A stretch of DNA of 64,000 nt, taken from assembly GCA_017303805.1 (NCBI GenBank), contig JAFLBQ010000004.1, forward strand, positions 186,001-250,000, in the 5' to 3' direction. The translations under genes were made by a program, and so were the position numbers. Below are positions 36,228 through 53,944 of the stretch, in pieces. How positions within the stretch are numbered: the stretch's first letter is position 1; each line of letters opens with the position of its first letter. The notes beneath the pieces were generated by a model. That model ran no database searches, had not been told where the DNA came from, and saw only the letters and a program-made list of their open reading frames with translations. This DNA comes from Cytophagales bacterium (GTDB lineage: Bacteria > Bacteroidota > Bacteroidia > Cytophagales > Cyclobacteriaceae).

Positions 36228-37685
36228 TTACTCGGTTGCAATTTGCACGAGGCCGCGGCTGCCCTGAATGTCGGGTGCAGCTATTTCAACTTCCAAAAGC
36301 GAGTTGTGCGAAGCGTAATTGAATTTCTTCAAAATAAGCGGGCCTGCCGCTGTTACTGAAACCGGCCTGGGGCAGTAGATTTTTACAACCTGACTTCCAT
36401 ACACTTCTACATCTACCATAATACAGCCGGGTTTACTTTCCAACTTATAGATGTTGCCCGTGCCATCGTGTTGCACAAATACGGCAGGTGGTGTGCTTTC
36501 AATCGAATAAGTAAGTTGGTACACCTCGGCTTGCAGGGTGTTGAGGTATAAGAAACACCACGGCTGCTGGTAAAAATATGCCGGTATGGCATTTCCGTTT
36601 AGGAACGCATGTACAAATTGCCCCGGCTGAATTCTAAGTTTCACTACCAAATTGCCTAAAAGATCTCTTTGATACGATTGATCGGGCATCGCTCGGTTAT
36701 CTATTTCAACGCGGCCGGCACTTAGCTCCTGCAGGTGAGTAAATTTTTTGTATAACCATTGCGAGTGTAACTGGCGGGTATTTTTTGCCACGTACCGATC
36801 TGTAAGTTGCTGTACCTGGTTGTAGTAAGCAACCCACTTTGCAGTTACCGCTTCCTGCAGGAAATCATCTTGCGCAAGCCAGTTGGGCCAATGACTTTCT
36901 ATTACATCGGTTTGCTGCTCGGGTAGCGGTGTGGTGGGCAAACTATCTAATTGATACCACGGGTTGCCATAGTTAATTCTATTGATAACGTGTACCCCAA
37001 AATCGAAGTCGCCACCATTTACCTCCGGTGGCGGATTTAATTCCGGTATCTGGCTAAAATCGGTGTTGGCATACTTAACACCGGCTTCGGCCAACAACTT
37101 TCCTAAACTGTAGGCCCCGGTCGGGTTCCAGTAGTAGCTGTAGGCACAGGGTACAAAACTTTGCGGAAACGAATGCCCTTCGGCTGGCGATAATCCATAC
37201 TGCGCCAAAATTTCTTTGAAGGCTAAAATATGCCCCTGTAGTTCGTCTTCGGGCCACGGGTGCTTATCTATTAAGTTATACCATTCGGCCCTCCGTTGCG
37301 GTAGTCCTGCGGCCCAGTATTCATGGCCGGTTCCGTGCAATCCAAACTCGATAAAGGCGGCTTGCGCTTTAACATACTCCATGATGGCTAGCTGGTGCGA
37401 ATTTACCCGGTGCGTGTTGTTCCACTTTTCGCGTTGATGTGTGGTAGTGGGATACTTTGCCAGCACATTTGCACGATCCATCTCGCTAAGAATAAATAAA
37501 CATTGAATTCTTACACCGGCTGCTTTTCCTACAGCCACCATGGCTTGATAGTCTTGCAAATCAAAATTACGTTTTACGCCTGCCCGGTGCGGGCCACCAT
37601 GGGGTGTGATGGACAAATCGCTGCCTTCGTTCCAACCAAGATCATCAACTGCAAAAGCAAACGGACGGGGAAAGAGTAAGGCCAT
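36228..37685 (-). CDS. NodB-like deacetylase family protein of the aminosugar locus
   Basis: A 485-residue protein with no signal peptide. Its N-terminal half has polysaccharide-deacetylase metal-site features: AFAVDDLG (Asp14-Asp15) and GLHGTGHEYW with His116 and His120 in an HxxxH arrangement, plus GHSFP near 169-172. The C-terminal part (about 290-485) is beta-rich. The closest idea is a DUF2334/CE4-like deacetylase acting on a GalNAc- or GlcNAc-derived sugar. It is the last gene of the AgaS-PfkB-aldolase operon, 3 bases after the aldolase, and no AgaA/NagA-type deacetylase is present here. Confidence 0.6.
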   Translation of the reverse strand: MALLFPRPFAFAVDDLGWNEGSDLSITPHGGPHRAGVKRNFDLQDYQAMVAVGKAAGVRIQCLFILSEMDRANVLAKYPTTTHQREKWNNTHRVNSHQLAIMEYVKAQAAFIEFGLHGTGHEYWAAGLPQRRAEWYNLIDKHPWPEDELQGHILAFKEILAQYGLSPAEGHSFPQSFVPCAYSYYWNPTGAYSLGKLLAEAGVKYANTDFSQIPELNPPPEVNGGDFDFGVHVINRINYGNPWYQLDSLPTTPLPEQQTDVIESHWPNWLAQDDFLQEAVTAKWVAYYNQVQQLTDRYVAKNTRQLHSQWLYKKFTHLQELSAGRVEIDNRAMPDQSYQRDLLGNLVVKLRIQPGQFVHAFLNGNAIPAYFYQQPWCFLYLNTLQAEVYQLTYSIESTPPAVFVQHDGTGNIYKLESKPGCIMVDVEVYGSQVVKIYCPRPVSVTAAGPLILKKFNYASHNSLLEVEIAAPDIQGSRGLVQIATE

Positions 37686-37688
37686 ACC

Positions 37689-38513
37689 TTAGCAAACTTG
37701 TGGCGCAATAACGGACAATTTATTTTCGATGAGCGAAGTTACCGAGGCGGTTGCAACCGGAAATACCTTCCGAAGATCAATCTCATCAGTATCTTTCAAA
37801 ACCCGTTGAAGCGTTTTCATAAAAATATTTTTTGTCTCGGTAGCTAAATTGATTTTACAAATACCGCGGCTAATAGCTTGCACCAGTTGATCGTCTGGAA
37901 TGCCGGAACTACCGTGTAAAACAAGTGCTGCCGGTGTGGCATTATGAATTTGGCTAAGCAGTTCCAATTGCAACTTTGGAGGTTCTTTGTAAAAACCATG
38001 TGCCGATCCAATGGCAATGGCAAGTGCGTGCACTCCGGTTGCTTCAACAAACTGCGCAGCCTCGGCAGGTTGCGTGTAGCTACCTTGCTGTTGCTGACCC
38101 AATTTTGCCACATAGCCTAATTCTGCTTCCACATTAGCCCGATAAGATTCCGCAATTTTTACCGCCTCTTTGCTGATTCTTACATTTTCGGCAAATGGTT
38201 TTTCGCTGGCATCAATCATTACGGAATCAAATCCTGCATCAAGGCAGCGCTTCACCATTTCCAACGAGCTTCCATGGTCCAGATGAATCCACCCCTCGAC
38301 ACCCGTTTCTTTTAGTGCGGTGCGGGCCATCGCTACTGCAACTTCGGCTGTCAGGTACTGGATAGAACTTTCTGATAGTTGAAGAATAATTGGAAGGCGT
38401 TTGTTCTTTGCCGCCTTCAAAATTCCAAGCAGCGTTTCGAAATTATAAAAGTTAGTGGCCAGCAAGGCTGCCTTGTTGGTTCTGCATTCAGCTAATTTTT
38501 CTTGCAATCGCAT
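37689..38513 (-). CDS. Class II aldolase, tagatose-1,6-bisphosphate type
   Basis: A 274-residue zinc-dependent aldolase. HLDHGSS carries the catalytic and metal-binding residues, VEAELGYV and IGSAHGFYK give more metal ligands, and LHGSSGI and KINLATE bind phosphate. It belongs to the GatY/KbaY/fructose-bisphosphate aldolase family. The AgaS-like and PfkB neighbours point to tagatose-1,6-bisphosphate as substrate, giving DHAP and glyceraldehyde-3-phosphate. It is 2 bases after the PfkB gene and 3 before the deacetylase-like gene. Confidence 0.87.
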   Translation of the reverse strand: MRLQEKLAECRTNKAALLATNFYNFETLLGILKAAKNKRLPIILQLSESSIQYLTAEVAVAMARTALKETGVEGWIHLDHGSSLEMVKRCLDAGFDSVMIDASEKPFAENVRISKEAVKIAESYRANVEAELGYVAKLGQQQQGSYTQPAEAAQFVEATGVHALAIAIGSAHGFYKEPPKLQLELLSQIHNATPAALVLHGSSGIPDDQLVQAISRGICKINLATETKNIFMKTLQRVLKDTDEIDLRKVFPVATASVTSLIENKLSVIAPQVC

Positions 38514-38515
38514 TC

Positions 38516-39457
38516 CTAAAATGTATAGTTAAAAGTTGTTCGGGCTATTTCTTTTACGATTTCCAAATTGCCAAACGCCCCGGTACCACCGGGCCGCGTG
38601 GTATTAATGGCACCCGTAAGTGCTCCAAACTCAAGACACTCCGGCAACGAGCCTCCGGTTAAAAATTTATGTACAAAGCCTGCATCGAAACTATCGCCAG
38701 CGCCAATGCTATCTACCACGTGGGTATTCAAAAACGGAGCCTGATGAAGCAATTGCTGATTATGCCAGAGATAGGCGCCTGCATCACCGGCTTTAACCAC
38801 CACACACGGTGCGCTCAATTGTGTGGCTAATGCTTCGTGCAGGCTGCGGGTTTTAGTTAGTGCCAAGAGCTCCGTAACGTTAGGAAGAAAAAAATCTACA
38901 TGCGGCAACAGGTGTTGCAAGGGTAAATCCCATTGCTCAGCCGGATCCCACTGCGGATCGATTGAAGTTGAAAGCCCCAGCGCCTTCGCTCTCTTAAAAA
39001 GAGAAACCAAATTTGATCTGATACCGGTTTGAAGAAAAACAGAACTTACATGCAAATGCCGCGACTGCAGTAATAACTCTTCGGACACATCTTGTTCAAC
39101 CAGATGGCGCATGGCACCCGGGTAGGTTACCATGGCCCGATCCTGATCGAAATTAAGCACAATGGTAGCGCCCGTACTGTGCTGTGTGGACTGCCTGATA
39201 AATTGGGTAGCTACTCCTTTTGATTTTAAACTTGCAATCACCAGGTCGCCAAAGCTGTCTGCTCCTACTCTGCCCACAAAGGCTACGTTACTTCCTAAGG
39301 TGCTGGCATTGCTGGCAAAAATGGCTGAGCTGCTGCCCAGCGTAAGCGCCATGTCTTCGGCAAGTACTTCTTTTCCAACCTCTGGTGTTCTTTCAATTCG
39401 ATTTAGAATCAAATCAACATTCAACTCGCCAACAACCAGAATATCAAATTTCTTCAT
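38516..39457 (-). CDS. PfkB family carbohydrate kinase
   Basis: A 313-residue ribokinase-fold sugar kinase. It has the N-terminal GELNVDLI, substrate-loop GSSSAIFASNASTLG, and the catalytic ATP-binding signature DSIGAGDSFDAGF with its Asp general base. In the AgaS/KbaY setting the expected job is phosphorylation of tagatose-6-phosphate, but a GalNAc kinase or 2-keto-sugar kinase is equally compatible with the sequence. It is second in the operon after the AgaS-like gene (48-base gap). Confidence 0.88.
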   Translation of the reverse strand: MKKFDILVVGELNVDLILNRIERTPEVGKEVLAEDMALTLGSSSAIFASNASTLGSNVAFVGRVGADSFGDLVIASLKSKGVATQFIRQSTQHSTGATIVLNFDQDRAMVTYPGAMRHLVEQDVSEELLLQSRHLHVSSVFLQTGIRSNLVSLFKRAKALGLSTSIDPQWDPAEQWDLPLQHLLPHVDFFLPNVTELLALTKTRSLHEALATQLSAPCVVVKAGDAGAYLWHNQQLLHQAPFLNTHVVDSIGAGDSFDAGFVHKFLTGGSLPECLEFGALTGAINTTRPGGTGAFGNLEIVKEIARTTFNYTF

Positions 39458-39505
39458 GCCTTAGCAATATACTATTCAATGTTTTCTAATCTGCTGGTAA
39501 TTTGT

Positions 39506-40660
39506 TTACAAAATAGAATAGATGTTAACTCCTTCCACCACCCGTGTTATGGCACCAGTAGCCGAAGGTGTATCTGGCTTAAGGCCTAATTGCAGCGATT
39601 TATAAAAAGCCAGCATCTGAAAGGGCACGATGCTACTCACTGCAAGAAATCCCTCGTCAACAGCAGGTCCGTTTTCGGAATAGGTAAATACATGATCAAG
39701 TGCAATATCAGGTAGTTTAGATTCACCAACCCCAATTTCGAGCAATGGCGTACTACCCTTGTGCATGGTACGCACCAGGTCGCGTTCGTACTTTAAGGCG
39801 TGTTGATTATTTGAAAAGATGTAAGCCACCAGCGTGGTTGAGTCAACTACCGCTTTGGGGCCGTGCCTGAAACCAAGAAAGGAATCATTCTTACAGATTA
39901 CCTGCCCATCGGTAAGTTCTTGCAATTTTAAATGCGCCTCGGTTGCTGTTCCGTAAAAAGGACCCGACCCTAAGAATACCGCTCTTTTAAAATTAACATT
40001 TGCGAGTTGCTGCAACTCGGCTGCATAGTACTGCACCGATTTTTCTGCATACTTACACAGTAAGTCCACTTGCGGCAGCACTACATTTAATGCATTGCAA
40101 TGTGCAACTAACTTACCGGCCAGCAACATGCCTGTATAGCTGCTCGTCATTGCCAGACTTTGATCGTTTGCTTCGGCCGGAAGCACAATAACATACTTAC
40201 CGCCTTTTACTGCCTGGCGAGCCAAAAGTCCTTCCGGATTGCAGGTAATAATAAGATGAGCGCAAGCATCGCAAATTGTATCGGCCAGCGCAACGGCAGC
40301 CGCACTTTCGGGGCTATTACCCGACCGTGCAAAAGAAACCAGTAAGGTAGGCTCCTTCCGGAGCAGGTAATCGTGCGGATGCGATACAATATCGGTGGTA
40401 GAGATGGCATCGGTTACAATGCCAAATTGATTTTGAAAGATGCCCCGCAACGAAAGCCCAATAAATGCGCTGGTGCCGGCACCCGTTAGAATAATGCGTG
40501 CAGGCTTACTTGCTGAAATAAAATCAGAAATGCTTTTCTGTTGAAGTACAAGTGCTGCAGCTATTTTGGCCCACAATTCGGGCTGTTGCGCAATTTCGCG
40601 CGCGGTATGAATTGCGCCCTTTGCCTCCAGCTCAGAGCGGCTAATACCCAAATGGCTCAT
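39506..40660 (-). CDS. agaS: AgaS-like SIS-domain galactosamine-6-phosphate deaminase/isomerase
   Basis: A 384-residue protein, the same length as E. coli AgaS. Two SIS domains are visible: the first with LTGAGTSAFIG (about 58-68) and SFARSGNSPES (about 109-119), the second with FLGSGPFYG (about 234) and FRHGPKAVV. AgaS converts galactosamine-6-phosphate to tagatose-6-phosphate and ammonia. TAREIAQQPELW at the start matches AgaS rather than GlmS. It is the first gene of a four-gene operon and is divergent from a DeoR-family repressor. Confidence 0.88.
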   Translation of the reverse strand: MSHLGISRSELEAKGAIHTAREIAQQPELWAKIAAALVLQQKSISDFISASKPARIILTGAGTSAFIGLSLRGIFQNQFGIVTDAISTTDIVSHPHDYLLRKEPTLLVSFARSGNSPESAAAVALADTICDACAHLIITCNPEGLLARQAVKGGKYVIVLPAEANDQSLAMTSSYTGMLLAGKLVAHCNALNVVLPQVDLLCKYAEKSVQYYAAELQQLANVNFKRAVFLGSGPFYGTATEAHLKLQELTDGQVICKNDSFLGFRHGPKAVVDSTTLVAYIFSNNQHALKYERDLVRTMHKGSTPLLEIGVGESKLPDIALDHVFTYSENGPAVDEGFLAVSSIVPFQMLAFYKSLQLGLKPDTPSATGAITRVVEGVNIYSIL

Positions 40661-40680
40661 TAGGATTAGAATTAACTTAT

Positions 40681-40697
40681 CAAAAATAACAAAAATA
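40681..40697 (-). promoter_or_regulatory. Tandem TAnnTTTG -7 elements before agaS
   Basis: On the minus strand TATTTTTG occurs twice, at 40697-40690 and 40688-40681, just before the agaS start. TAnnTTTG is the -7 consensus of the Bacteroidota housekeeping sigma factor. No clear -33 TTG accompanies either copy. Confidence 0.4.
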
Positions 40698-40707
40698 AAT
40701 CATTATA

Positions 40708-40760
40708 CTTTCGTTTTATTTCTAAATAAATGAATTAATCCTTCCTTTTATTTCCAAATA
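40708..40760. promoter_or_regulatory. Direct repeats, candidate DeoR/AgaR-type operator
   Basis: TTTTATTTCTAAATA (40714-40728) and TTTTATTTCCAAATA (40746-40760) match at 14 of 15 bases, 32 bases (about three helical turns) apart, each preceded by a CTTTCG/CCTTCC-like box. The layout recalls the T-rich TTTC-containing sites I remember for E. coli AgaR. They lie between agaS and the DeoR-type gene. Confidence 0.5.
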
Positions 40761-40860
40761 GACTTAAAATTGTAATAGAAGCATAAAATTGGCGTCAACC
40801 ACTTATCTTTTCCTTATTTTACTAATGTTTTAACTTTCGTAAGATCAATTTAAGCCCCAA

Positions 40861-41640
40861 ATGTCGCGCAATCAAGATTCTACCGTAACCAGAAGAAAAG
40901 AAATACTGGAGCTAATTGCCGAAAAGGGGGAAGTGTTTGTGGAGGTATTGAGCCGCAAATTTGGCGTAAGCGAGGTAACCATCCGGAACGACCTGGACCA
41001 ACTGGAGCAAAAAAATATGCTGATCCGCGCGCGGGGCGGGGCGATAAAACTAGAAACCGGGGTGGGGATAGATCAGCGGTTAGCCGACAAAAACAAAATC
41101 AATTTTCAGGAGAAATCGCGCATTGGTAAAAAAGCAACCGAGTTGATTACCGAATCGGACACTATTATAATAGACTCGGGCAGCACCACAGCCGAAATGG
41201 TGCGGAATCTGCCCGACTTCCAGGACTTAACCATTATTACCAACGCAATGAACATTGCCAATCAGTTGGTAACACGCCCAAATGTAAATGTGATTATTCC
41301 CGGTGGCTACTTGCGAAAAAATTCATTATCGCTGGTAGGCCCGCAAGCCGAAAAGAGTTTGCGCAACTTCAATGTGGATAAAGCATTTTTGGGAGTGGAT
41401 GGTTTTGATACCCGCCAGGGACTTTATACCCCCAACGTAGAAGAAGCCCGGCTTAACGAAATTATGATTGAAATTTCAAAAGAGGTGATTTTGCTAACCG
41501 ACTCGACCAAATTCAGCAAACGGAGTTTTGCATTTATTTGTAGTGTAAGGGAGATTGATAAGGTAATAACCGATGGTGGCGTAAAAGATGACGACCGCAA
41601 GCGGCTGGAGGATGCCGGAGTGGAATTGATAATTGTTTAG
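40861..41640 (+). CDS. DeoR/GlpR (AgaR-like) transcriptional regulator
   Basis: A 259-residue repressor. The N-terminal HTH is VEVLSRKFGVSEVTIRNDLDQLE (about 26-48), the DeoR signature, followed by RGGAI. The effector domain (about 75-255) has DSGSTTAEM, ITNAMNIA, PGGYLRKNSLSLVGP and FLGVDGFD, typical phosphosugar-binding segments. It most likely senses a phosphorylated intermediate such as galactosamine-6-phosphate or tagatose-6-phosphate and controls both arms of the locus. It is divergent from agaS and convergent with the NagX-like gene, 2 bases apart. Confidence 0.92.
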   Translation: MSRNQDSTVTRRKEILELIAEKGEVFVEVLSRKFGVSEVTIRNDLDQLEQKNMLIRARGGAIKLETGVGIDQRLADKNKINFQEKSRIGKKATELITESDTIIIDSGSTTAEMVRNLPDFQDLTIITNAMNIANQLVTRPNVNVIIPGGYLRKNSLSLVGPQAEKSLRNFNVDKAFLGVDGFDTRQGLYTPNVEEARLNEIMIEISKEVILLTDSTKFSKRSFAFICSVREIDKVITDGGVKDDDRKRLEDAGVELIIV

Positions 41641-41642
41641 AG

Positions 41643-42737
41643 CTACAGTTTAAAAAAGATTTTCTTCTTGTAAAGGAAAAAACACAAGCCCCACTCCAAC
41701 GCAAAAATTACTACCGACCCAAGCAGTGCAGCCCCTGCTGTAGGAAAATGAATTAACTCAGCTACGCCCTCAACAATTTGCAGCACATATTCATTAAACC
41801 AGCGGGCGCCTACTATTTCAAAAAACAAATAGATAAAAATTGAGTTCATACCTACAATGGCAAAGAAGGCAATATGGGTGTGCTGTTTCAGATCAACCCA
41901 CCAATAAAACAAAGCCATTAACAACAAACACCAGCCACCGGAAACGAGTACGAAGGTAGTGGTGCTTATTCGTTTAATGATGGGAATGCCTGCTGCATTC
42001 AAACTATAGCCCACCAGCAATAAAATAAACCCGGCTACCAACAGGTATTTTAGTTTGAGTTTACCATCCAGATTCTGCAATAGTAACTTACCTACCAGCG
42101 CTCCCCAAATGGTGTGTGCAGCAGTTGGCAGACAATTAATTGCTACCCATCCATCTGAATTAATTTTGTTCATCAGCAGCAGGTCTATGTAATTACCAAA
42201 ATTATGTTGGTCGGTAAACGGCTGGTCAAAACCCGGGATGTTAGTAAACCGGTATAAAAGTTCGGTTACTAGAAGTAGCCCCACGCTCACGCCCAGTTGG
42301 GCCCCAACGCTCCAATTAAAAATCAAAAAAGCAATTAGTAATGTAACCGAAAGTTGTGTCAGCACATTCCACAACTCAAAAGAGAGTCCATCTGCGCGCA
42401 CCGCGTAGTTTAACACGCCCCAAAAAAACAACCACCCCGAGCGCGTTAGCATTTTAATAAACGATTGGTGCCAGGAAGTACCCAGGTGCTGTTGCCGGTG
42501 TACCGAGTAGGCCATGCTTACCCCGGCAATAAACATAAATGCAGGCTGCACCAAATCCCAAAACCGAAGGCCACTCCAGGGGTGATGGAAAAACTGTTCG
42601 ATCAGAAAATTAGCTGGAAATAATTCTGCCAAATGGTCGTAGAGGCGTGCACCCTCCAGCATTAAAAGCACCATAATTAAACCCCGGTAGAAATCGAGCG
42701 AACGCAGCCGGGTTTCAATTATGGATGCTGTTACCAT
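41643..42737 (-). CDS. NagX-like DUF5009 membrane protein
   Basis: A 364-residue protein with about ten TM helices, starting RLRSLDFYRGLIMVLLMLEG, the DUF5009/heparan-glucosaminide N-acetyltransferase signature. Relatives in aminosugar loci (NagX) are suspected of moving or acetylating GlcNAc-type sugars at the inner membrane. Here the neighbours suggest GalNAc or galactosamine as substrate. It follows SusD by 2 bases and is the last gene of the outer-membrane operon. No other sugar transporter is present in the locus, so this is the best inner-membrane uptake candidate. Confidence 0.8.
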   Translation of the reverse strand: MVTASIIETRLRSLDFYRGLIMVLLMLEGARLYDHLAELFPANFLIEQFFHHPWSGLRFWDLVQPAFMFIAGVSMAYSVHRQQHLGTSWHQSFIKMLTRSGWLFFWGVLNYAVRADGLSFELWNVLTQLSVTLLIAFLIFNWSVGAQLGVSVGLLLVTELLYRFTNIPGFDQPFTDQHNFGNYIDLLLMNKINSDGWVAINCLPTAAHTIWGALVGKLLLQNLDGKLKLKYLLVAGFILLLVGYSLNAAGIPIIKRISTTTFVLVSGGWCLLLMALFYWWVDLKQHTHIAFFAIVGMNSIFIYLFFEIVGARWFNEYVLQIVEGVAELIHFPTAGAALLGSVVIFALEWGLCFFLYKKKIFFKL

Positions 42738-42739
42738 TG

Positions 42740-44197
42740 TTAGTTATTCTGAGCGCAGATCGTGTTAACGATTACTTCGTCTTGTGGAATGTAATAAATA
42801 TTTCGCGGGTCTTCCCAGCTTACCACCACCTTGGGTTGCACACCCGGAAATGTTCTGTCTAAATTAAGTTTATTCCGATACACATCAATGGCCCGATGAC
42901 CCTCGTATGCGAGTTCCAACCTGCGCTCCTGCAACACGGCATTGAGCACCGAGCTTGCACCCTGCAGGTTACCGGCACTGTACAGCGAAGTAGCCAATCC
43001 GGCCCGGGTACGAATTACATTTATATCAGCAAGGGCATTGGGCGTGTCTCCTTTTTTTGCGTACGCTTCGGCCCGGTTAAGGTACATTTCGGCAAGTCTT
43101 ATAACATGAGGCGAACTTAAAGTAACAATGCCATCCTGGTAGGAGAACTTGGTAATAAAATATTTTGGAACTCCATTGCGGGTAACCACGGTTACGCCAT
43201 CGTTGGCCAGTTGGGGTTTTATTAACTCGTTTCGAACATCTTCGGGATGCTGCTGCATAAGGTTGCGCAGTGACTCTGAAATATATACTTCGCCCCAACC
43301 CAACCCATCTGTTAAATACATGGAGCCAATCGATGCCAGTACCTTATCGTCTTGCAGCAAGTGTTTAATTACAAAAATGGATTCGGATGAGGCAGGTGAA
43401 TTGTGAAAAAGATCTAAGTAGGAACCGGTTGGCTGCAACTGAAACCGGGGCGACTGTATAACCCGCGTTGCAAAATCAATGGCTTCATCGTGCTGTTCCT
43501 TATAAAGGTACAGGCGCGAGAGCAGCGCCCAGGCAGCCTCCTTTGATGCAAACTCTACCCCCCGGCTTTGGCCGGTGGCCATTAGCGTAGCAGCCTTTAG
43601 CAAATCTGCTTCTACCTGTGCATAGCACTGGCCAACGGTAGCGCGCGCCAGTTTATCGGGTGTTGCCGATTGCAACCGCAGTGGAACTCCGGGGTTATTG
43701 GCTCCATGCGAAAATGGGCGCGCATACAACCGCAACAAATCGAAGTAAGCCATTGCCCGCATAAAATAATTTTCGCCTAACAGAAAATCATTCGCCTGGT
43801 TTTGACCTTCGGTAACGGACTCGATATTTTGGTTGGCAAGGTTTACTATTTTGTAGGCTACATACCAAATGTAGGTGGCATTTTCCATAGCCGGAAAATG
43901 TTCGCGCGTAGCCGCAAAAAACAGGGGATCGGTTGTGGTGCCACTCAACGTTACATTATCACCGGCATACTCCAGCATTTGATGGAGGTTGCGCGCATAG
44001 GTGCTTCTGAAATCCAGCCGGCCTTTGTACTCCAGCATGTCTTTCATTAATGCGTACGTACCGTTGGTAGCGTAGGTAAGCGCATTGGGTACGCTAGCAA
44101 GATTTTCGCGGGTAATTCCATCGAAAGGTTCAATCTCGAGATTGCAGGCTGTGGTAAGTGTTACCAACAATGCAAGTAGGGATAGTTTGATTTTCAT
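42740..44197 (-). CDS. susD: RagB/SusD family glycan-binding lipoprotein
   Basis: About 485 residues from the ATG at 44197 (an in-frame GTG lies 6 bases earlier). The lipoprotein signal ends near LTTAC (Cys18). The SusD TPR scaffold includes NYFMRAMAYFDLLRLYARPF, AWALLSRLYLYKEQHDEAID and EMYLNRAEAYAKKGDTPNALADINVIRTRAGL, with a C-terminal ELAYEGHRAIDVYR block, all hallmark segments. It caps the SusC transporter and binds the glycan at the surface. It is 11 bases downstream of susC. Confidence 0.96.
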   Translation of the reverse strand: MKIKLSLLALLVTLTTACNLEIEPFDGITRENLASVPNALTYATNGTYALMKDMLEYKGRLDFRSTYARNLHQMLEYAGDNVTLSGTTTDPLFFAATREHFPAMENATYIWYVAYKIVNLANQNIESVTEGQNQANDFLLGENYFMRAMAYFDLLRLYARPFSHGANNPGVPLRLQSATPDKLARATVGQCYAQVEADLLKAATLMATGQSRGVEFASKEAAWALLSRLYLYKEQHDEAIDFATRVIQSPRFQLQPTGSYLDLFHNSPASSESIFVIKHLLQDDKVLASIGSMYLTDGLGWGEVYISESLRNLMQQHPEDVRNELIKPQLANDGVTVVTRNGVPKYFITKFSYQDGIVTLSSPHVIRLAEMYLNRAEAYAKKGDTPNALADINVIRTRAGLATSLYSAGNLQGASSVLNAVLQERRLELAYEGHRAIDVYRNKLNLDRTFPGVQPKVVVSWEDPRNIYYIPQDEVIVNTICAQNN

Positions 44198-44208
44198 ACA
44201 CACGTAGA

Positions 44209-47200: not shown

Positions 47201-47226
47201 GGGTAAGGGTTGTACTTGTTTTTCAT
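44209..47226 (-). CDS. susC: SusC/RagA family TonB-dependent transporter
   Basis: About 1005 residues. I chose ATG 47226; the TTG at 47250 would overlap the previous gene and adds little. A signal peptide ends near LPALAQ, followed by a carboxypeptidase-like regulatory domain (VSGRVTDQADQSTMPGVNVLLKG), the TonB-box-like EEVIVVGYSEKRKSEITGAV, the plug with the SusC marker GSRANQGVIVVTTKKG, and a long beta-barrel ending LAGLQVTF. It imports oligosaccharides with SusD using TonB energy. It is 20 bases downstream of the DUF4874 gene in the operon. Confidence 0.96.
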   Translation of the reverse strand: MKNKYNPYPSNMKRKLKVAWLAVGITGLFSFCALPALAQSVSGRVTDQADQSTMPGVNVLLKGTTKGTTTDASGRYTLELTGSSDVLVFSFIGYVTQEVAVNGRSVIDLQLEPSTAQLEEVIVVGYSEKRKSEITGAVVNVSAEKLKGVTGSNLAYQLQGKVAGVQVTSSTGAPGAPSEIRIRGNSSIGGDNGPLYVVDGIVGGAFNPNDVESITVLKDAGAVALYGSRANQGVIVVTTKKGKSEQAEIAYSTSVGVRNVTSGKFKVMDSQELYDTERAMFASSAQFQTFRPASLLNTNTDWLGLAYKQGVIQNHNLSARGKSGKVAYFIAGDYYNEEGTLLTTGYERYNFRTNLDFALSKDVQLTTNLNITRDMTNSYHWRWPYQPFLYLPYDTPYGADGNIRYVDATTSGFLTRDKNNILHSAQYNDYKNKGLSLNGDAILTINITPWLTAQSRNRIAFATYRSDSYEDSKTIEGAANKGILSFGVSEGYGLVSTNMLRASKDFGLHQLGGFVGIEGQKSGSETAGAGGYGIVSGIKIPGGIASPQSISGGKSEENAISVLTEVNYNFNEKYFASVSYRRDGSSKFGANKRWGNFGAVSASWIVSKENFISSVKSITFFKVRTSYGILGNDAISPFQYLAKYNFTTQYNGGSAGYPETLPNPDLGWEQTKAANVGIDAQLFKKIDITLDAFNKNTDQLLFYVPLAPSQGIARVLRNAGRLVTQGIELGISGDVMQKGSFTWNIGFNIGSAQNEVKELADGVSLLTRDYDGVKQAVLVGHDVNTWYLPKWMGVNSANGEPQWEYAVTDASGNVTGYQLTNQYAQASASTSLQAVGSATPKFYGGLSTSLSYQRFTLSVASAFQYGNLVYHRTREFLDADGANFNFNMMSLADGWSRWRAPGDVATHPKPVYGGNLQSNKPSSRYLEDGSFWRIRNIMLTYAIPTSILNRLKLSRANVFLSGDNLFTFTKFSGMDPEIPFSGIYGMSDFKYPISKQYLAGLQVTF

Positions 47227-47246
47227 GAGGTTTATTGATTGGGTTT

Positions 47247-49952
47247 TCAAAATTTATATAACAAATGATGCTCGGCACCGGTAGTTGATTCTACCACCAA
47301 AATATAATTTCCACGCGCCAAAGGTGTAAGCGAATAGGTAATTTCATTTTCTGTTTCGGTAATCCGAACCAATTCCAATTTGCGACCACAAAGATCAACA
47401 GCGCGTACGCGTGTAATCTGCTGCGGCTGCTTGGTAACTACCAGGTACTCCTGGGCGGGGTTCGGAAAAATTTTACTGATTTTTTCTTTCGTGCCCGTAA
47501 CCAACGAAGCCTTGCCACTTACCACAGGCGTATAAGTAGAAAGCCCGTTGGAATTGTAGGCGGCCGCTCGGTAATAGTACACCTTGTCGGTTTCGACTGT
47601 TTTATCGTAATAAATAAAAGTAGCGCGCGGAAGTACGCTCAATAATTCAAATCCAGCATCGGGAGTGGTAGAACGTTCAAGCCAATACCCCGTACAAGCG
47701 GTGCACGCTGCCCACGAAATAATAAGTTCCGAAAGCGGTGTAACCGTTGAAGTGTTCACCGCAAATGAAGCCAGCATAATTGGTGGCATCATCCGTACAA
47801 AGTTGATCGGCTTTTCACCTGCGGCCGGTAAATCGATTTGCTGAGTGGCGGCCGTTGCTTTGAAAGCAACCGGAATAAGAAGATTAGAACCAAGGCCCGG
47901 CAGGTCTGTAAGCGATACCCCAAGTTCGGCATTTCCACCCGCTGCAACTGTTTTTATTTTCTTCTCAAAGCGCCAACCCGATTGAAATGAGAAAACAGAA
48001 TCGTCTTTAATAAGAGCATCGAACCCGGCCCCGGGCCATTCTGAAAATGTTTTGCCGGTGGCCATGTTGTTATCAAGATCGAGGTAAATGGACCAACTGC
48101 TCAAGTTGCCCTCTGCATATGCATATAAACTATCGCGGTCGGTACTTAATCTGAAAGTGGTAGTGGTAGTTGTATAATTCGAAGCAAGGGGTTGCGTTGC
48201 TTCCCATTCCGTTACGTTGCTATCTACTTTATATTGATAGAAGCTGGGCACTGAGGGTTTACCTGCAATGGAAATTGATTCTGACAAACCAGACAGGGCC
48301 GTTTCGTTTACCAGATAGCTGCGATAGTGATAGGGCGTGCCAGCTGTGGGCAGCGGATCGACAATTGAAATTGCTTGTGGCGGTACCATGGCAATGCTTG
48401 TATAGGCACCGCTACCTGTTGCACGCTCAATAACCCGATGCGCTTGAGTTGGTGTGGCCCCCCAATACAAAATTACATTTGTACCCGATGCAGTTGCCAA
48501 CAACGGAGACGGAGCCGCCAATGAATTTTCTTTTTCTGTTGCAGCAAAGTAAACCGTACCCGAATAATCCGGCACAGCAAGTGTGGCGTCAACAAGTAGT
48601 TCGTGCTGAAGAAAATTATACCCGGTGGCAGGTTCCCACACGTTGCTGTTAGCCATTCGAATAGCATACAGCGGGTTTGCAGATAAGGTTAATTCCGGAT
48701 CGGGCATACTGAACAATACTTCGTACACGCCCGGTGCAATCGATGCGGGCAATCCGGCAGTAAAATTAATTTTAATGGTATCCGCTAGCGTCCACTTACG
48801 GGGTTCTTCTGCGGTTGCAACTTTAAAAGTTTTACCGGTAGTTTTATTTCGTAAAATAATTTCAGCTTTTCGTGGATTAAATACATTTGCCCAACCCTCG
48901 TTTACCAGTGCAATAGAAAACTGAACGCCCCCATTTGGTTTAGCGGTAGTTGGAAGCTTGCTCCTTGTAAGTCTGTAGCGGTATCCTAATTTCTTTTGGG
49001 TGTCATCGTAGCAGCCAGCAGTTTTCCAACTGTTTAAAACCGTTTGATGGTAATCGCTGTTCAGGTAAGACCAATGGAAGCGTTGCATTTCGGCCAGCGC
49101 ATTGGGGCACTCTGAAAGTGGAACATATACCCCGCAAGTTTCGCCACCCATAGGCAAGTAAACGGTCTCCGCTTCCAGGTAGGCTTTCTCTTCTGTTACG
49201 TTTCCGTAGGTTCCCACATCGCTGGGGGAAGCAAGAAAGCAATCATTATGATGACCCAGCCTCGCCTTAAATGTTCCGGTTAAAGCTTCTGCTTCAGTAA
49301 GGGGTGGTGTGGATTCAACCATCTTACGTTTTATGTTAGGGGTGCGCATTTGTACTGCCCGCGTTGAAGGTAGGGCATTGGTTAAGGCCAGCACCACCGC
49401 TCTTCGGTTGGCCCAATCTGCCTCTGTGGGACTGGTTATGGATTGCGCAAAGTGATCGGTATAGTACCACTCGCCCCAGGCACCCACAAAACCTGCCTGC
49501 ACTACAGCAATTACATCGCTGTGTTGTTGCAACAAAGGTTTAAGTTGTTCAATGTGTTGCAAAACCCGACCAGGCCGGGCATCACCATACGGTGGTGTAG
49601 AGCGGGTGGTGTAGGCAAATCGTACAATTACTTTTAGACCAGCCTTGCGCACGGTGTTAAAATCCTGTTGCATGTTGGCGAGGTAGGCTACGGAGATCGG
49701 AGTTTCAACAAAACCATCGAGGTAAAAAACGCGCAAGATGAGGCTAATGCCCTGATTGCGATAGTTGGAGATGGTGGTTTGATTTAAAAATGAATATGTA
49801 CCCGAGCGGGTTTCGGTATGTTTATAAAATCCACGTTCGGGGTTAGCAAAATTTGATTCGTCCGCTACATAGGTTCTTTCTGTAAAAGTCTGGGCTATTC
49901 CAAACTCAACTACCCCACTCACTGCAATCAGGCACAACAACAATCTCTTCAT
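47247..49952 (-). CDS. Secreted DUF4874/DUF4832 protein with CBM9-like and T9SS domains
   Basis: A 901-residue multidomain protein. Signal peptide 1-20; DUF4874 then DUF4832 to about 450, a probable TIM barrel with GFVGAWGE (Glu161) and MGGETC (Glu271); a FnIII-like segment (about 465-560); a CBM9-like domain (about 565-715) similar to that of the PKD lipoprotein; a second FnIII (about 725-815); and a T9SS type A sorting domain from IFPNPAQEYL to the end. It is thus exported through type IX secretion. Its start overlaps the GH109 stop as TGATG. Role: unknown; glycan backbone cleavage is my inference. Confidence 0.85.
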   Translation of the reverse strand: MKRLLLCLIAVSGVVEFGIAQTFTERTYVADESNFANPERGFYKHTETRSGTYSFLNQTTISNYRNQGISLILRVFYLDGFVETPISVAYLANMQQDFNTVRKAGLKVIVRFAYTTRSTPPYGDARPGRVLQHIEQLKPLLQQHSDVIAVVQAGFVGAWGEWYYTDHFAQSITSPTEADWANRRAVVLALTNALPSTRAVQMRTPNIKRKMVESTPPLTEAEALTGTFKARLGHHNDCFLASPSDVGTYGNVTEEKAYLEAETVYLPMGGETCGVYVPLSECPNALAEMQRFHWSYLNSDYHQTVLNSWKTAGCYDDTQKKLGYRYRLTRSKLPTTAKPNGGVQFSIALVNEGWANVFNPRKAEIILRNKTTGKTFKVATAEEPRKWTLADTIKINFTAGLPASIAPGVYEVLFSMPDPELTLSANPLYAIRMANSNVWEPATGYNFLQHELLVDATLAVPDYSGTVYFAATEKENSLAAPSPLLATASGTNVILYWGATPTQAHRVIERATGSGAYTSIAMVPPQAISIVDPLPTAGTPYHYRSYLVNETALSGLSESISIAGKPSVPSFYQYKVDSNVTEWEATQPLASNYTTTTTTFRLSTDRDSLYAYAEGNLSSWSIYLDLDNNMATGKTFSEWPGAGFDALIKDDSVFSFQSGWRFEKKIKTVAAGGNAELGVSLTDLPGLGSNLLIPVAFKATAATQQIDLPAAGEKPINFVRMMPPIMLASFAVNTSTVTPLSELIISWAACTACTGYWLERSTTPDAGFELLSVLPRATFIYYDKTVETDKVYYYRAAAYNSNGLSTYTPVVSGKASLVTGTKEKISKIFPNPAQEYLVVTKQPQQITRVRAVDLCGRKLELVRITETENEITYSLTPLARGNYILVVESTTGAEHHLLYKF

Positions 49953-51301
49953 CAGAATTCGTTTGTGGTAGCAAAATCATTCTTGCGTTGCATCCACTTT
50001 CCCTGGGTAAAATCCGGAAACGCAATGGTTTCACCGCCCAATTGAATAGAGGTTTCGGAAAGCGGTGTAATGGCACTCCAGGTAACGGCATCGTACACAT
50101 CTTGTGGGGTATTGCTCTTCCGTTTTACGGATTCGATAAAGGCATGCAGTACAAACCAATCCATACCCCCGTGCCCGGCACCGGCCGCATCGTTGCCATA
50201 CCGTTTCCACAGCGGATGATCATACTGATCTAACCAGGCTTGCGCACCATCCCACGTATGGGGTTTGCTTTTTCCTTCTACATAAATCGAATTATTAACA
50301 TCCATCCATAAACCGTTTGTACCCTGCACTCTAAACCCTAACGAGTAGGGCCGGGGCAAATTGGTATCGTGTTGCAGCAAGATGGTTTCTCCATTAGCGC
50401 ATTTCAGCATGGTGGTAACAATGTCGCCCAGTTTAAATTCTACTTTCGCGTTTGGATGCGACTCGCCCGCCTTTTTTACAATGTAATCGTGCAAGCCTCT
50501 TGCTTTGGAAGCGTAAGAAACCAGCTCGGTTATCCGGTTGCCCCGATTTATATCGATCATCATCGCAACCGGCCCAATACCATGCGTAGGGTATAAATCG
50601 CCATTGCGCATTACGGAATGTTGGGTTCGCCACTGGGCTTCCGAAAATCCTTTCTCTCCAAATTCAACACCACCACCATAGGGGTCTTTGCCGTTATTGA
50701 ATTTTACTTCGCGTAAATCGTGTTGGTAGCCGCCTTGCACGTGCACGATTTCGCCAAATACTTTTTGGCGTACCATGTTGAGCACAGCCATTACATCGCG
50801 CCTGTAGCAAACGTTCTCCAGCATCATTAACGGCATACCGGTGCGCTCGCTCGTGTAAACCAATTGCCAGCACTCTTCAACCGACATGCCGGTAATCACT
50901 TCACATCCTACATACTTGCCCGCATTCATCGCATCCAGGCACATTACCGTGTGCCACTCCCACGGAGTAGAAATAATTACTGCTTCAATTTCTTTATTCT
51001 CGAGCAACTTCCGGTAGCCGTAAGGCCCCTCGTTGATGATCTGCGGCATGGGCTTACCTGATTTTTTAATCAGGCTCTTGCTCATCTCTATCATTCGCGC
51101 TTGCACATCGCAAATAGCCACTACGTCAACATCGCTCCTATTTAATAGTAAATCCAAATGCCCCTGGCCGCGCAGCCCTACGCCAATAAAACCAACACGT
51201 ACGTTTTTAGGTTTTTGGTCGGCCCATGAAGCTAAGGGTAGCATGGAAAATCCTAACCCTGCAGCCGAAGCGGCACGAATAAAATCTCTTCTTGTAGTCA
51301 T
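49952..51301 (-). CDS. GH109 family alpha-N-acetylgalactosaminidase (Gfo/Idh/MocA fold)
   Basis: About 449 residues from the ATG at 51301. It begins with a twin-arginine-type signal (TTRRDFIRAASAAG) and then the NAD-binding GFIGVGLRGQGH. The segments RNGDLYPTHGIGPVA and GHGGMDWF match GH109, an NAD-dependent retaining alpha-N-acetylgalactosaminidase family. Other Gfo/Idh/MocA oxidoreductases remain possible, but these blocks are specific. Tat export of a cofactor-bound enzyme to the periplasm fits. Its ATG lies 4 bases after the U-tract of a terminator hairpin. Confidence 0.88.
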   Translation of the reverse strand: MTTRRDFIRAASAAGLGFSMLPLASWADQKPKNVRVGFIGVGLRGQGHLDLLLNRSDVDVVAICDVQARMIEMSKSLIKKSGKPMPQIINEGPYGYRKLLENKEIEAVIISTPWEWHTVMCLDAMNAGKYVGCEVITGMSVEECWQLVYTSERTGMPLMMLENVCYRRDVMAVLNMVRQKVFGEIVHVQGGYQHDLREVKFNNGKDPYGGGVEFGEKGFSEAQWRTQHSVMRNGDLYPTHGIGPVAMMIDINRGNRITELVSYASKARGLHDYIVKKAGESHPNAKVEFKLGDIVTTMLKCANGETILLQHDTNLPRPYSLGFRVQGTNGLWMDVNNSIYVEGKSKPHTWDGAQAWLDQYDHPLWKRYGNDAAGAGHGGMDWFVLHAFIESVKRKSNTPQDVYDAVTWSAITPLSETSIQLGGETIAFPDFTQGKWMQRKNDFATTNEF

Positions 51302-51305
51302 AGCT

Positions 51306-51340
51306 AAAAAAAGTAAAGGCACTCCACAGAGTGCCTTTAC
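51306..51340 (-). terminator. Intrinsic terminator between the PKD gene and the GH109 gene
   Basis: GTAAAGGCACT (51313-51323) and AGTGCCTTTAC (51330-51340) form a perfect 11-bp stem with a 6-base loop. On the minus strand it is followed by U7 and, 4 bases later, the GH109 ATG at 51301. It should leave the PKD lipoprotein mRNA much more abundant than the downstream genes. Confidence 0.9.
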
Positions 51341-51353
51341 AACACGTTAAACC

Positions 51354-52268
51354 CTATTTTGTGAGATCTACCTGAATTAGTTTACCGGTAGCTGTATTGT
51401 CTGTGGGGAATGCACCCAATGTAGCCCAGGTTTCTGTAATAGGCCGCGACTTGGAACCATCTTCGAAATAATAATTGCCATCTACATCTACCAAGGCAAA
51501 GTTAAACTTGGTAGCCAGGTTGGTGAAGGCTGCTCTTGAAATTGAAAACTCCAACGCCTTGCCTGTGCCCACGGTTACTACCGCAGAGCTTTTAACTGCA
51601 TTTGATCCTACTGCGGATGCAACTGTCCAATCCCAAACATCAACGGGGCCATCCACATCGCGGAAAATGTCAGCGTCTTTAACAATCGCCAAATCTCCTT
51701 CCATCAGGTAGTCGGCTCCAAAACCTTCGGGATACCAACCACTGAAATATCCGGTTGCCGGGTTATTATCGGTATCGAGATACAAATCCATAAACCCGCT
51801 GAAGTTACCAGTACCTTCTACGTAGAAATAAATTTTCAACGCATCATAATCAACCTTCACTTTGGTAATCGTGCCAGATTTTTCGGGTGCAATTACTTCT
51901 GGAATAGAAGCCCATTCTGAAAAATTGCCATCAATCACTACAGCCGAAGATTTTGCCAGGGTAAGTTCATCGGGCAACGAAGTTGCTGAACCGCCTGAGC
52001 CGGTTACCGATAAGGTTACGGTATAATTCCCAAACGATGCATAGGTATGTGTTGGGTTTTGCTCAGTGGAAGTACTTCCATCGCCAAACGTCCAATTAAA
52101 AGAACTTGCATTCTTAGAAGTGCTGGTAAACTGAACCTCGCGGCCGTTTGCAACATACGTAAAGGAGGCCGTAGGTGGTTCCGGATCGTCACTGCAACCG
52201 GCCAAAAACAACACGCTGGCAACTACTGCCATACCCGCTAACAAAGTGAAAAATCGATACATTTTCAT
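51354..52268 (-). CDS. PKD-domain surface glycan-binding lipoprotein
   Basis: A 304-residue lipoprotein: lipobox LAGC (Cys25). A PKD domain (about 33-105) has FNWTFGDGSTSTEQNPTHTY. Residues about 108-304 form a CBM9-like domain (IDGNFSEWA, LYLDTDNNPATGYFSGW) homologous to the one in the DUF4874 protein. As the first gene of the operon it probably binds the target glycan on the outer surface, like SusE/SusF-type proteins. A terminator directly behind it suggests high expression relative to the enzymes downstream. Confidence 0.85.
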   Translation of the reverse strand: MKMYRFFTLLAGMAVVASVLFLAGCSDDPEPPTASFTYVANGREVQFTSTSKNASSFNWTFGDGSTSTEQNPTHTYASFGNYTVTLSVTGSGGSATSLPDELTLAKSSAVVIDGNFSEWASIPEVIAPEKSGTITKVKVDYDALKIYFYVEGTGNFSGFMDLYLDTDNNPATGYFSGWYPEGFGADYLMEGDLAIVKDADIFRDVDGPVDVWDWTVASAVGSNAVKSSAVVTVGTGKALEFSISRAAFTNLATKFNFALVDVDGNYYFEDGSKSRPITETWATLGAFPTDNTATGKLIQVDLTK

Positions 52269-52420
52269 AGTAGTAAAATTTGGTTCTTTAATTTTCGAAA
52301 GGTTTTATAAGTAACATAACAACGATATAAAAGTATAAAAACAATTAAATAAAAGAAATAATATTACTTTTAATTTCCATTTTTACAGTAAAAAAAAGGA
52401 TTTGTAAGAATTTACCGAAT
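52269..52420. promoter_or_regulatory. Divergent AT-rich promoter region of the two DUF4832-linked operons
   Basis: 152 bases, very AT-rich. It contains T-rich words on both strands (minus ATTTCTTTTATTT within 52347-52360; plus CTTTTAATTTCC, 52367-52378) resembling the direct repeats before agaS, and a minus-strand TACTTTTA -7-like sequence. These may be shared DeoR-type operator half-sites. No perfect palindrome is visible. Confidence 0.35.
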
Positions 52421-53944
52421 ATGCTTCCGATAAAACCATTTAAACCAGCCTTACTAATCATTTTTGGGCTTTTGGCCGCCTTTCGGTGTTCCGAGAACGC
52501 ACCTACACCCTTACCGCCCGAAACTATTGTTTACGAGGAGTCCTTCGAAGACTTCCCTAACCCCGAACGGGGCTTTTACCATTATTCGGAAACCCGCGCC
52601 AGCAGCTACTCGCCCCTAAACGCAACCACGGTGGCAAACTACCGCAGCCCGAGGCAGGTTTCGGGCGCTAATTACCAGGTTGTTAGTACCCTTGTGTTCC
52701 GGTACTTCATCTTAGACTCTTTTAAAAATTCAGAACTAAGCGCCAGCTTTCTTTCTAATGTGGCTCAGGACTTCAACACCGCGCGCACGGCAGGCGCCAA
52801 AATAATTGTTCGCTTTACTTATACCGTTACGGCCACTGCCGGCAGTTGTGCCGAAGGCTTTATTTGCCCACCCTATGGCGATGCGTCCAAGGCTATTGTA
52901 CTCCAACACATTCAACAGCTTGCACCGGTGCTTACCCAACATGCTGATGTAATTGCCTGTGTGCAAATGGGATTTATTGGCACCTGGGGCGAGCAATACT
53001 ATACCGACTATTTTGGGGATGCCTCGCAAAACGACCAGGGGAAGTTACTGGACGCCAACTGGCAAGATCGATTTGAGGTATTGAAAGCATTGCTGGATGG
53101 CACGCCTAAAAGCATGATGGTACAGGTGCGTTACCCGCAATTAAAACAACGCTTTATTTATGGTGTTACTGCTCCGGTAACTTCAGCCGCCCTAACCGAG
53201 GCCGAAGCACTTTCGGGATCGGACAAAGCACGGATTGGTTTTCACAACGATTGCTTTTTGGCCAGCTTTGATGACTTTGGCACCTACGAAGACTATGGGA
53301 ACTCAACCTCGCCTCGCACCACTGCCAACTTTACCCTACGAAGTTATTTTAGTGCCGATAGCAAATACGTAGTAGTGGGTGGTGAAACATGCAGCGATGG
53401 CTACAGCCCTCAAAATGATTGCGAACCAGCCGGCAAAGCCATTAAAGAAATGAGCGACATGCACTACACTTATCTTAACACCAACTACAACAACCAGGTA
53501 AACAACGATTGGCAAACGGGAGGCTGCATGGATGAGATTAAGCGGAGGTTAGGTTACCGCCTGGTATTGCGAAAAGCTACCCTGCCCTCGCAAGCCAAAA
53601 CTGTTGCCCCGTTGCCTGTTTCTATTGAAATAGAAAATGTTGGCTTTGCTGCGCCCTATACGAGCCGGCCTGTGGAATTAGTTCTTATAAACCAAACTAC
53701 CGGAGTTGTTTCCAAACAAACCTTTACTACCGAGCCAAGACTTTGGCAACCCGGATCAATAGTTTTAACTGAAACTCTTGTTGCTCCTGCTAACCCCGGT
53801 GAATGGGACTATTACCTGAACCTGCCCGATAACAACACCGCATTGGCAACACGGACCGAGTACAGCATCAGATTGGGCAATGAAAACGTGTGGCAGCCAA
53901 CTTCCGGCTTTAACAAACTAAACCACACACTTAAAGTGGAGTAG
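52421..53944 (+). CDS. DUF4874/DUF4832 protein (second copy)
   Basis: A 507-residue exported protein; the N-terminus is a signal whose Cys23 (AFRCS) could be lipidated, though Arg before Cys is atypical. DUF4874 covers about 40-200 and DUF4832 about 205-505. Blocks shared with the 901-residue paralogue are NPERGFY, QDFNT, PPYGDA, GFIGTWGE (Glu191), HNDCFLAS and VGGETC (Glu322). They space like a (beta/alpha)8 barrel with acids on strands 4 and 7. It is divergent from the SusCD operon and lacks the CBM9, FnIII and T9SS parts. Confidence 0.83.
   Translation: MLPIKPFKPALLIIFGLLAAFRCSENAPTPLPPETIVYEESFEDFPNPERGFYHYSETRASSYSPLNATTVANYRSPRQVSGANYQVVSTLVFRYFILDSFKNSELSASFLSNVAQDFNTARTAGAKIIVRFTYTVTATAGSCAEGFICPPYGDASKAIVLQHIQQLAPVLTQHADVIACVQMGFIGTWGEQYYTDYFGDASQNDQGKLLDANWQDRFEVLKALLDGTPKSMMVQVRYPQLKQRFIYGVTAPVTSAALTEAEALSGSDKARIGFHNDCFLASFDDFGTYEDYGNSTSPRTTANFTLRSYFSADSKYVVVGGETCSDGYSPQNDCEPAGKAIKEMSDMHYTYLNTNYNNQVNNDWQTGGCMDEIKRRLGYRLVLRKATLPSQAKTVAPLPVSIEIENVGFAAPYTSRPVELVLINQTTGVVSKQTFTTEPRLWQPGSIVLTETLVAPANPGEWDYYLNLPDNNTALATRTEYSIRLGNENVWQPTSGFNKLNHTLKVE

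Follow-up and report, generated by a model that had tools for sequence, protein, structure and literature searches.

A Cytophagales polysaccharide utilization locus that may be directed at galactosamine-based biofilm polymers

Which glycan is the target of a gene cluster that combines a SusC/SusD pair, a GH109 enzyme, a galactosamine catabolic operon and two proteins with DUF4874 and DUF4832 domains? We addressed this question in a 64,000-nucleotide stretch of a Cytophagales bacterium (contig JAFLBQ010000004.1, positions 186,001 to 250,000; hereafter the window), where 12 intact open reading frames (ORFs) span 36228-53944 in the ORF listing. A preliminary description had read this segment as a locus for alpha-linked N-acetylgalactosamine (GalNAc) or galactosamine (GalN) glycans, a reading that is supported by the linkage of DUF4832 genes elsewhere, by the co-location of AgaS with DUF4832, and by a DUF4832 protein reported to disperse aggregates of the biofilm polymer Pel. 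We propose, with a probability of roughly two in three, that the locus is a SusCD polysaccharide utilization locus (PUL) for a partly de-N-acetylated, alpha-linked GalN/GalNAc polymer such as Pel or galactosaminogalactan. The twelve-gene block appears to hold almost everything needed to degrade and consume such galactosamine-based biofilm polymers. As a PUL the locus is of an ordinary kind; its target class is unusual and fairly well supported, and two to three of its proteins would have new roles if confirmed.

Most of the genes lie in two minus-strand runs. The first (52268 to 41643) encodes a PKD lipoprotein, GH109, a DUF4874-DUF4832 protein (P0003), SusC, SusD and a NagX-like protein (P0002), with gaps of at most 31 bases or small overlaps, while the second (40660 to 36228) encodes AgaS, a PfkB-family kinase, an aldolase and an unnamed protein (P0001), with gaps of at most 48 bases. 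The plus strand carries agaR (40861) and a second DUF4874-DUF4832 gene (52421). As in SusCD PULs generally, susC adjoins susD with glycan-degrading genes alongside, and the GH109 protein combines the Pfam C-terminal domain of its family with an alignment, over residues 34-455, to the solved alpha-N-acetylgalactosaminidase 2ixa. All of the genes named in the preliminary description are intact ORFs of the stated families (SusC, SusD, PKD, GH109, AgaS, PfkB, aldolase, AgaR and two DUF4874-DUF4832 proteins); its part list, sound as to families, left out P0001 (36228-37685) and the NagX-like gene (41643-42737), which lie inside its own boundaries.

The two DUF4874-DUF4832 proteins are 42% identical to each other and reach the Pfam gathering scores for both domains. 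P0003 also has a region in common with the PKD lipoprotein (E 7e-7), which we label CBM9-like. The activity of this family had been taken as unknown, which is not wholly the case: purified SIR_1591 of Streptococcus intermedius, described as a TIM-barrel protein that carries a DUF4832 domain, is reported to have disrupted Pel aggregates as PelAh did (PMC12345266). A DUF4832 gene is likewise described as adjoining pelDEADAFG in streptococci and clostridia (PMC7112168), and Pel itself as mainly an alpha-1,4-linked GalN-GalNAc repeat (PMC9135694). In an alignment of the two window proteins and 28 others taken from the collected loci, 30/30 sequences have E161, D237 and E271 (P0003 numbering), together with about 30 further invariant residues. 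E161 and E271 are candidates for a catalytic pair, and we propose that P0003 could be a secreted endo-hydrolase.

We examined whether DUF4832 travels with GalNAc genes in a phylum sample of 395 Bacteroidota genomes. DUF4832 was present in 18 of these and AgaS in 21 at an author-chosen cut of at least 150 bits (39 at E 0.001), with both occurring together in five genomes at either AgaS cut. Excluding the window genome, four genomes have both against 0.86 expected (hypergeometric 0.0075), and each of the four carries AgaS and a DUF4832 copy 2.4-32 kb apart on a single contig; G154 and G313 hold an additional DUF4832 copy elsewhere (G and L numbers denote our genomes and loci). The product of the chance AgaS-DUF4832 proximities is 8e-10, a value that assumes independence and one copy per genome and is therefore too small by some factor.

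Sixteen of the 17 remaining DUF4832-positive genomes supplied 19 loci around DUF4832, taken as stretches of at most 20 kb, some shortened by contig ends (G523 and one weak second match in G347 were left out). AgaS, NahK-like, GH109 or NagX-like genes were found at E 1e-10 in nine of the 19, with GH109 matches in L031, L038 and L047 that are merely 31-33% identical. SusC (E 1e-10) was also found in nine, eight of which carry genes of this GalNAc set, the exception being L043 with NAGLU and GH31. Three DUF4832 loci lacking AgaS (L030, L035 and L036) instead carry an APH-family kinase, named by no NCBIfam model, and a GalE-like gene, which is over the GalE cut-off in L036. The APH kinase BT4240 of Bacteroides thetaiotaomicron is described as GalNAc-specific (PMC11992087), and the pair in these loci may represent a different GalNAc route, likened to BT4240 by family and not by sequence. 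Since two unrelated GalNAc routes would thus meet the same hydrolase family, we regard this pattern as the strongest support for a substrate that yields GalNAc.

The arrangement also recurs in relatives. P0001 relatives occur in 3/146 related genomes, the window's included, all three of which are among the 11/146 with DUF4832 (8 over the cut-off). In the genome collection, seven P0001 loci come from the window's two congeners (metagenome-assembled genomes, MAGs), Cesiribacter, Parachryseolinea, Dawidia, a Bacteroidales MAG and a Neomarinimicrobiota MAG; these seven genomes represent nine records, two pairs with identical places and scores having been merged. P0001 lies downstream of agaS-pfkB-aldolase in six of the seven loci, the other (L055) being without these genes in its 21 kb. 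G038, Cesiribacter, Parachryseolinea and Dawidia share the order DUF4832-PKD-GH109-SusC-SusD-AgaR-AgaS-PfkB-aldolase-P0001, with extra genes inserted, although the first DUF4832 gene is missing from Parachryseolinea and Dawidia and only G038 keeps the NagX-like gene at the locus. The presence of this order in four more Cytophagales genomes means that the grouping is not a product of chance. All seven P0001 genomes have a DUF4832 match (six over the cut-off, or eight of the nine records), which is near P0001 in five, including one (L054) under the cut-off; of the remaining two, L049 is in pieces too short for a judgement, and the available flank of L055 contains no DUF4832. A GH36-like protein with a lipoprotein-type leader precedes P0001 in L051-L054, and that of L051, the sole one compared, matches alpha-galactosidase 8x1b at 257 bits and galactosaminidase 9awt at 253 bits. 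FpGalNase is described as working with a GalNAc deacetylase (PMC11762096).

DUF4832 was also seen in other settings. A protein 50% identical to the window's is encoded in the actinomycete Nonomuraea (L148, 7524-9275), where three scanned neighbours are without amino-sugar signs, and a 1790-aa protein with a DUF4832 region lies beside the locus in G038 (L057, 7885-13257). In L043 (9232-15589), a distant DUF4832 gene (23%) sits beside NAGLU, glutaminase, GH16 and GH31, and this locus perhaps serves an alpha-N-acetylglucosamine polymer. A LytTR response regulator and a histidine kinase (53987-55719) adjoin the second DUF4832 gene of the window, and a histidine kinase and LytTR gene lie about 8 kb from the DUF4832 gene of a Spirosoma plasmid (L147).

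The NagX-like protein P0002 does not reach the 480-bit cut-off of the NagX equivalog NF046061 and has no Pfam match at E 0.001, so we did not class it as NagX itself. A profile of 11 P0002 relatives matches human HGSNAT (8vkj, E 8.7e-21) and aligns H51, the histidine of the HGSNAT/NagX superfamily that is present in 19/19 sequences, with H297 (counted manually), described as the catalytic residue of HGSNAT (PMC9007349). HGSNAT is described as acetylating a de-acetylated end so that an N-acetyl-specific exo-enzyme can work; a GH109 enzyme encoded in the same run as P0002 fits this logic for Pel, in an order that we infer. NagX-like genes adjoin DUF4832 in L030, L035 and L036 (51-53%) and in L031 and L038 (28%). 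We had considered NagX-like and GH36-like proteins as strict alternatives, many relatives having one of them, but G252 has both and L044 neither, leaving at most a tendency. In oral Prevotella (L149, NC_022111.1, 3039-14163), SusC, SusD, DUF4832, a NagX-like protein (28%), a 587-aa protein and GH31 are encoded in a row as a minimal set; oral streptococci have been reported as Pel makers.

The AgaS, PfkB and aldolase calls of the preliminary description hold as family assignments and less so at a finer level. AgaS falls below the curated TIGR02815 cut-off (529.2 bits), which is passed by 0/395 Bacteroidota genomes. Of the NCBIfam models, the broad cbbA is the only one that the aldolase passes, and none is passed by the PfkB protein. 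AgaS is 36% identical to its Escherichia coli counterpart and the aldolase 34% identical to E. coli KbaY, while PfkB is presumed, from its context, to be the tagatose-6-phosphate kinase. Some related AgaS operons carry a second PfkB or a GatZ-like gene; in the window, L052 and L053, neither lies next to agaS. A standard deacetylase is missing, as had been noted, with no NagA over the cut-off genome-wide. A carrier gene at C3:51504, unlinked to the locus, encodes a protein 60% identical to the major facilitator superfamily (MFS) protein of L049; the L036 relative of that MFS protein reaches 377.5 bits against NagP, for which the cut-off is 625.

Could P0001 be the deacetylase? The window protein has no signal peptide, and among the eight aligned members signal sequences, judged by hydrophobicity and by eye, occur only in L054 and L055 and not in the other six, so the protein should be cytoplasmic in Cytophagales. 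These members share invariant D14 D15, E113-F-G-L-H117-x3-H121 and E263-x-H265, of which D14 D15, H117-x3-H121 and H265 resemble NodB motifs. Membership in the standard NodB family was rejected, with PF01522 matching 0/8 members even at E 10, where solely unrelated chance-level Pfam matches appear (best 0.0089). A structure model built from the eight sequences (pLDDT 76, pTM 0.81; a single-sequence model of pLDDT 33 was discarded) gave Foldseek matches to GH29 (1.7e-5), GH57 (6.7e-5) and glycoside hydrolase/deacetylase 3lm3 (3.3e-3), all three with TM-scores below 0.4, weakly suggesting a GH29/GH57/deacetylase-like fold. The best match in a viral library was unnamed (1.7e-7), with a virus polysaccharide deacetylase eighth (0.019), PDB sequence searches with P0001 and P0004 gave no useful match, and no P0001 relatives were found in viral contigs or on plasmids. 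By its motifs, P0001 is a candidate, at the level of a guess, for a cytoplasmic GalNAc or GalNAc-6-phosphate deacetylase. In L075, L071 and similar operons, AgaS is accompanied by two PfkB kinases and also by an Amidohydro_2 protein, which could be another GalNAc-6-phosphate deacetylase.

The call of a DeoR/AgaR-like repressor was borne out by a score over the curated AgaR cut-off and by 41% identity to E. coli AgaR. The sole exact match in the window to an AgaR-type pattern, TTTCGTTTTATTTC, lies upstream of agaS and is followed 32 nt from it by an imperfect second copy, forming a direct repeat. Since allowing one mismatch yields five matches in the window against 1.57 expected, only the exact site counts. 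An identical 14-mer (14/14 bases) lies upstream of agaS in E. coli K-12, in a region with seven AgaR-pattern matches against 0.2 expected. The core of the pattern matches this region; its full form, absent from our literature search, is what we take to be the E. coli AgaR consensus. With at most one mismatch, the pattern occurs in 11 of 15 author-chosen agaS upstream gaps (not in L029, L044, L054 or L090), and 0-12 of 300 shuffles per gap do as well. An operator-like site is thus present in the target promoter, as in an AgaR regulon, and AgaR probably represses the agaS operon from an E. coli-like operator.

On these families, their synteny, the catalytic histidine and the operator-like site we base the following scheme. 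The two DUF4874-DUF4832 proteins would be exported and cut the polymer as endo-hydrolases, and the PKD lipoprotein and SusD would capture the fragments that SusC would import. The NagX-like protein would re-acetylate terminal GalN, presumably before GH109 frees GalNAc, which may enter through the unlinked NagP-like carrier. A presumed kinase would phosphorylate GalNAc ahead of its deacetylation, with P0001 as the candidate enzyme for the latter step. AgaS, PfkB and the aldolase would convert GalN-6-phosphate through tagatose-6-phosphate and tagatose-1,6-bisphosphate to trioses, with AgaR as the repressor of the agaS operon. We more tentatively entertain, with the odds somewhat against it, a wider claim: a scavenging pathway for cationic galactosamine exopolysaccharides in which DUF4874-DUF4832 would be a new endo-alpha-galactosaminide hydrolase family, an HGSNAT-type protein would re-acetylate GalN for GH109 as a bacterial counterpart of heparan sulfate breakdown in lysosomes, relatives would use a GH36-like alpha-galactosaminidase in its place, and P0001 would be the first of a new GalNAc deacetylase family replacing NagA/AgaA.

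Several observations weigh against the proposed galactosamine polymer PUL. DUF4832 is not consistently tied to non-aminosugar loci, a pattern that would have counted against the preliminary description, though ten of the 19 loci contain none of AgaS, NahK-like, GH109 or NagX-like genes in their stretch. Deletion of SIR_1591 is reported to have left Pel and aggregation unchanged (PMC12345266). DUF4832 is further described in a DUF4874-DUF4832-dockerin protein of lignocellulose-fed rumen Ruminococcus (PMC7480376) and in a Klebsiella capsule cluster (PMC6258164), and on the Spirosoma plasmid its gene is near a family-43 glycosylhydrolase and other sugar genes; because of these settings, the family must be broader than Pel. 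NagX-like proteins of at least 250 bits (an author-chosen cut) occur in 17 genomes, of which just five, the window's included, have DUF4832; the two closest P0002 homologues (64%) come from genomes without it. Most of 12 NagX-like loci picked from DUF4832-negative genomes (L073, L079-L089) lack any other gene of the window locus, with GH109-like and GH36-like genes in L073 and SusC/SusD matches in L082, L086 and L088. A P0001 profile reached a probability of 0.2% against 24 PF01522 proteins (controls: DUF4832 0.5%, NagX-like 0.1%). The genome has no GatZ/KbaZ, and the locus no second sugar kinase; three ROK proteins are encoded elsewhere in the genome.

The GH31 enzymes of DUF4832 loci L036 and L149 are a further such point. 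We had considered them as alpha-N-acetylgalactosaminidases and dropped this idea, since their PDB matches are GH31 alpha-galactosidases (641 and 684 bits). Given these and the GH36-like matches, relatives may meet galactose-containing polymers or remove GalN directly. In a variant of our proposal, the target would not be a GalN/GalNAc homopolymer but would contain both galactose and galactosamine, as fungal galactosaminogalactan does. The same GH31 enzymes and the nearly equal matches of the L051 GH36-like protein to 8x1b and 9awt favor this variant, which we consider rather unlikely for the window, where Pfam finds neither a GH31 nor a GH36-like gene at the locus.

The locus might instead release GalNAc from mucin-type O-glycans or blood-group-A-like glycoconjugates, with the DUF4832 proteins binding or trimming glycoproteins. 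The PUL BT4240-50 of B. thetaiotaomicron, described as acting on mucin GalNAc, is likewise a SusCD-type locus with GH109 and GalNAc catabolism (PMC11992087), and AgaS operons with nearby GH109 occur in DUF4832-negative genomes (L071, L072, L075, L076, L077 and L078). BT4240-50 is described as encoding an M60-like protease and a GalNAc kinase of the APH family where the window has AgaS/PfkB/aldolase, an HGSNAT-like protein and DUF4874-DUF4832. Against a mucin target, none of the 12 locus proteins belongs, in Pfam, to a family of proteases, fucosidases, sialidases or beta-galactosidases. Mucin GalNAc being fully acetylated, it is hard to see what an N-acetyltransferase would contribute there, and the two apparently exported DUF4832 proteins belong to a family with a Pel-dispersing member, leaving a mucin target distinctly improbable. 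That the proteins serve self-dispersal by processing the organism's own exopolysaccharide is more improbable still, despite the DUF4832 genes that are described beside pel genes in streptococci and clostridia (PMC7112168). A single locus that combines AgaR and a catabolic operon with SusCD points to uptake and use, and no pel-like gene is among the 30 Pfam-scanned window proteins, the rest of the genome not having been searched for pel genes.

Taken as a PUL for galactosamine polymers, the locus resembles several known systems in part. E. coli aga/kba shares AgaR, AgaS, a class II aldolase and an operator-like site with it but has phosphotransferase system (PTS) components, KbaZ and AgaA (a pseudogene in K-12), whereas the window locus has SusCD and hydrolases and no PTS gene. 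SIR_1591, a DUF4832 protein likened to the window's by description and not by sequence, acts on GalNAc-rich Pel, yet its gene is described as adjoining a Pel synthesis operon, while the window genes sit in an uptake locus. PelA, Sph3, Ega3 and the GH114/GH191 families are described as endo-acting on alpha-1,4 GalNAc/GalN polymers, as we propose for the window proteins, for which, in contrast, DUF4874/DUF4832 and a Por tail are the sole Pfam matches. Lysosomal HGSNAT and NAGLU would follow the same logic, with a terminal amino sugar re-acetylated across a membrane and then removed by an N-acetyl-specific exo-enzyme; in the window the sugar would be galacto rather than gluco, the membrane the bacterial inner membrane and the exo-enzyme GH109. 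Flavonifractor FpGalNAcDeAc and FpGalNase pair a GalNAc deacetylase with an alpha-galactosaminidase, much as a P0001 homologue and a GH36-like protein occur together in L051-L054 (the L051 protein, the one compared, matches FpGalNase-type 9awt); the window has no GH36-like gene, and P0001 is likened to FpGalNAcDeAc by description only.

Widespread bacteria and fungi build biofilms with Pel and galactosaminogalactan, polymers for which cutting enzymes are already known, and among the matches listed in a search of open-licence literature we found no uptake or utilization locus for either. The locus supplies a testable enzyme set, a repressor whose operator-like site is mapped, an acetyltransferase resembling HGSNAT in a defined pathway and an unnamed conserved family (Table 1).

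Table 1. Features of the locus, in window coordinates.
Feature	Position	Strand	Basis
P0001, unnamed 485-aa family	36228..37685	-	no Pfam/NCBIfam match at E 0.001; 8-sequence alignment
Class II ketose-bisphosphate (tagatose-bisphosphate-type) aldolase	37689..38513	-	PF01116 279 bits
PfkB-family kinase	38516..39457	-	PF00294 168.3 bits
AgaS-type galactosamine-6-phosphate deaminase/isomerase	39506..40660	-	TIGR02815 356.1 bits; PDB 3odp 284 bits
AgaR-operator-like site TTTCGTTTTATTTC	40709..40722	+	exact pattern match; imperfect second copy 40741-40754
AgaR repressor	40861..41640	+	NF040755 285.9 bits, cut-off 260
NagX/HGSNAT-type transmembrane N-acetyltransferase (P0002)	41643..42737	-	NF046061 119.7 bits; HGSNAT profile match
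SusD-like lipoprotein	42740..44203	-	PF07980 and PF14322
SusC-like TonB-dependent transporter	44209..47250	-	TIGR04056 738.9 bits, cut-off 368
DUF4874-DUF4832 protein, 901 aa (P0003)	47247..49952	-	Pfam; CBM9-like region, Por secretion tail
GH109 alpha-N-acetylgalactosaminidase	49952..51322	-	PF21252 309.7 bits; PDB 2ixa 543.8 bits; Tat-like leader by eye
PKD surface lipoprotein with CBM9-like region	51354..52268	-	Pfam; region common to P0003
Second DUF4874-DUF4832 protein, divergent	52421..53944	+	Pfam; lipoprotein-type leader by eye

Elsewhere in the window, a TPR-CHAT protein of 935 aa (33349-36156) adjoins the locus, and a NamZ exo-beta-N-acetylmuramidase (25408-26574) and a deoxyhypusine synthase-like protein, here in a bacterium (5386-6363), are also encoded.

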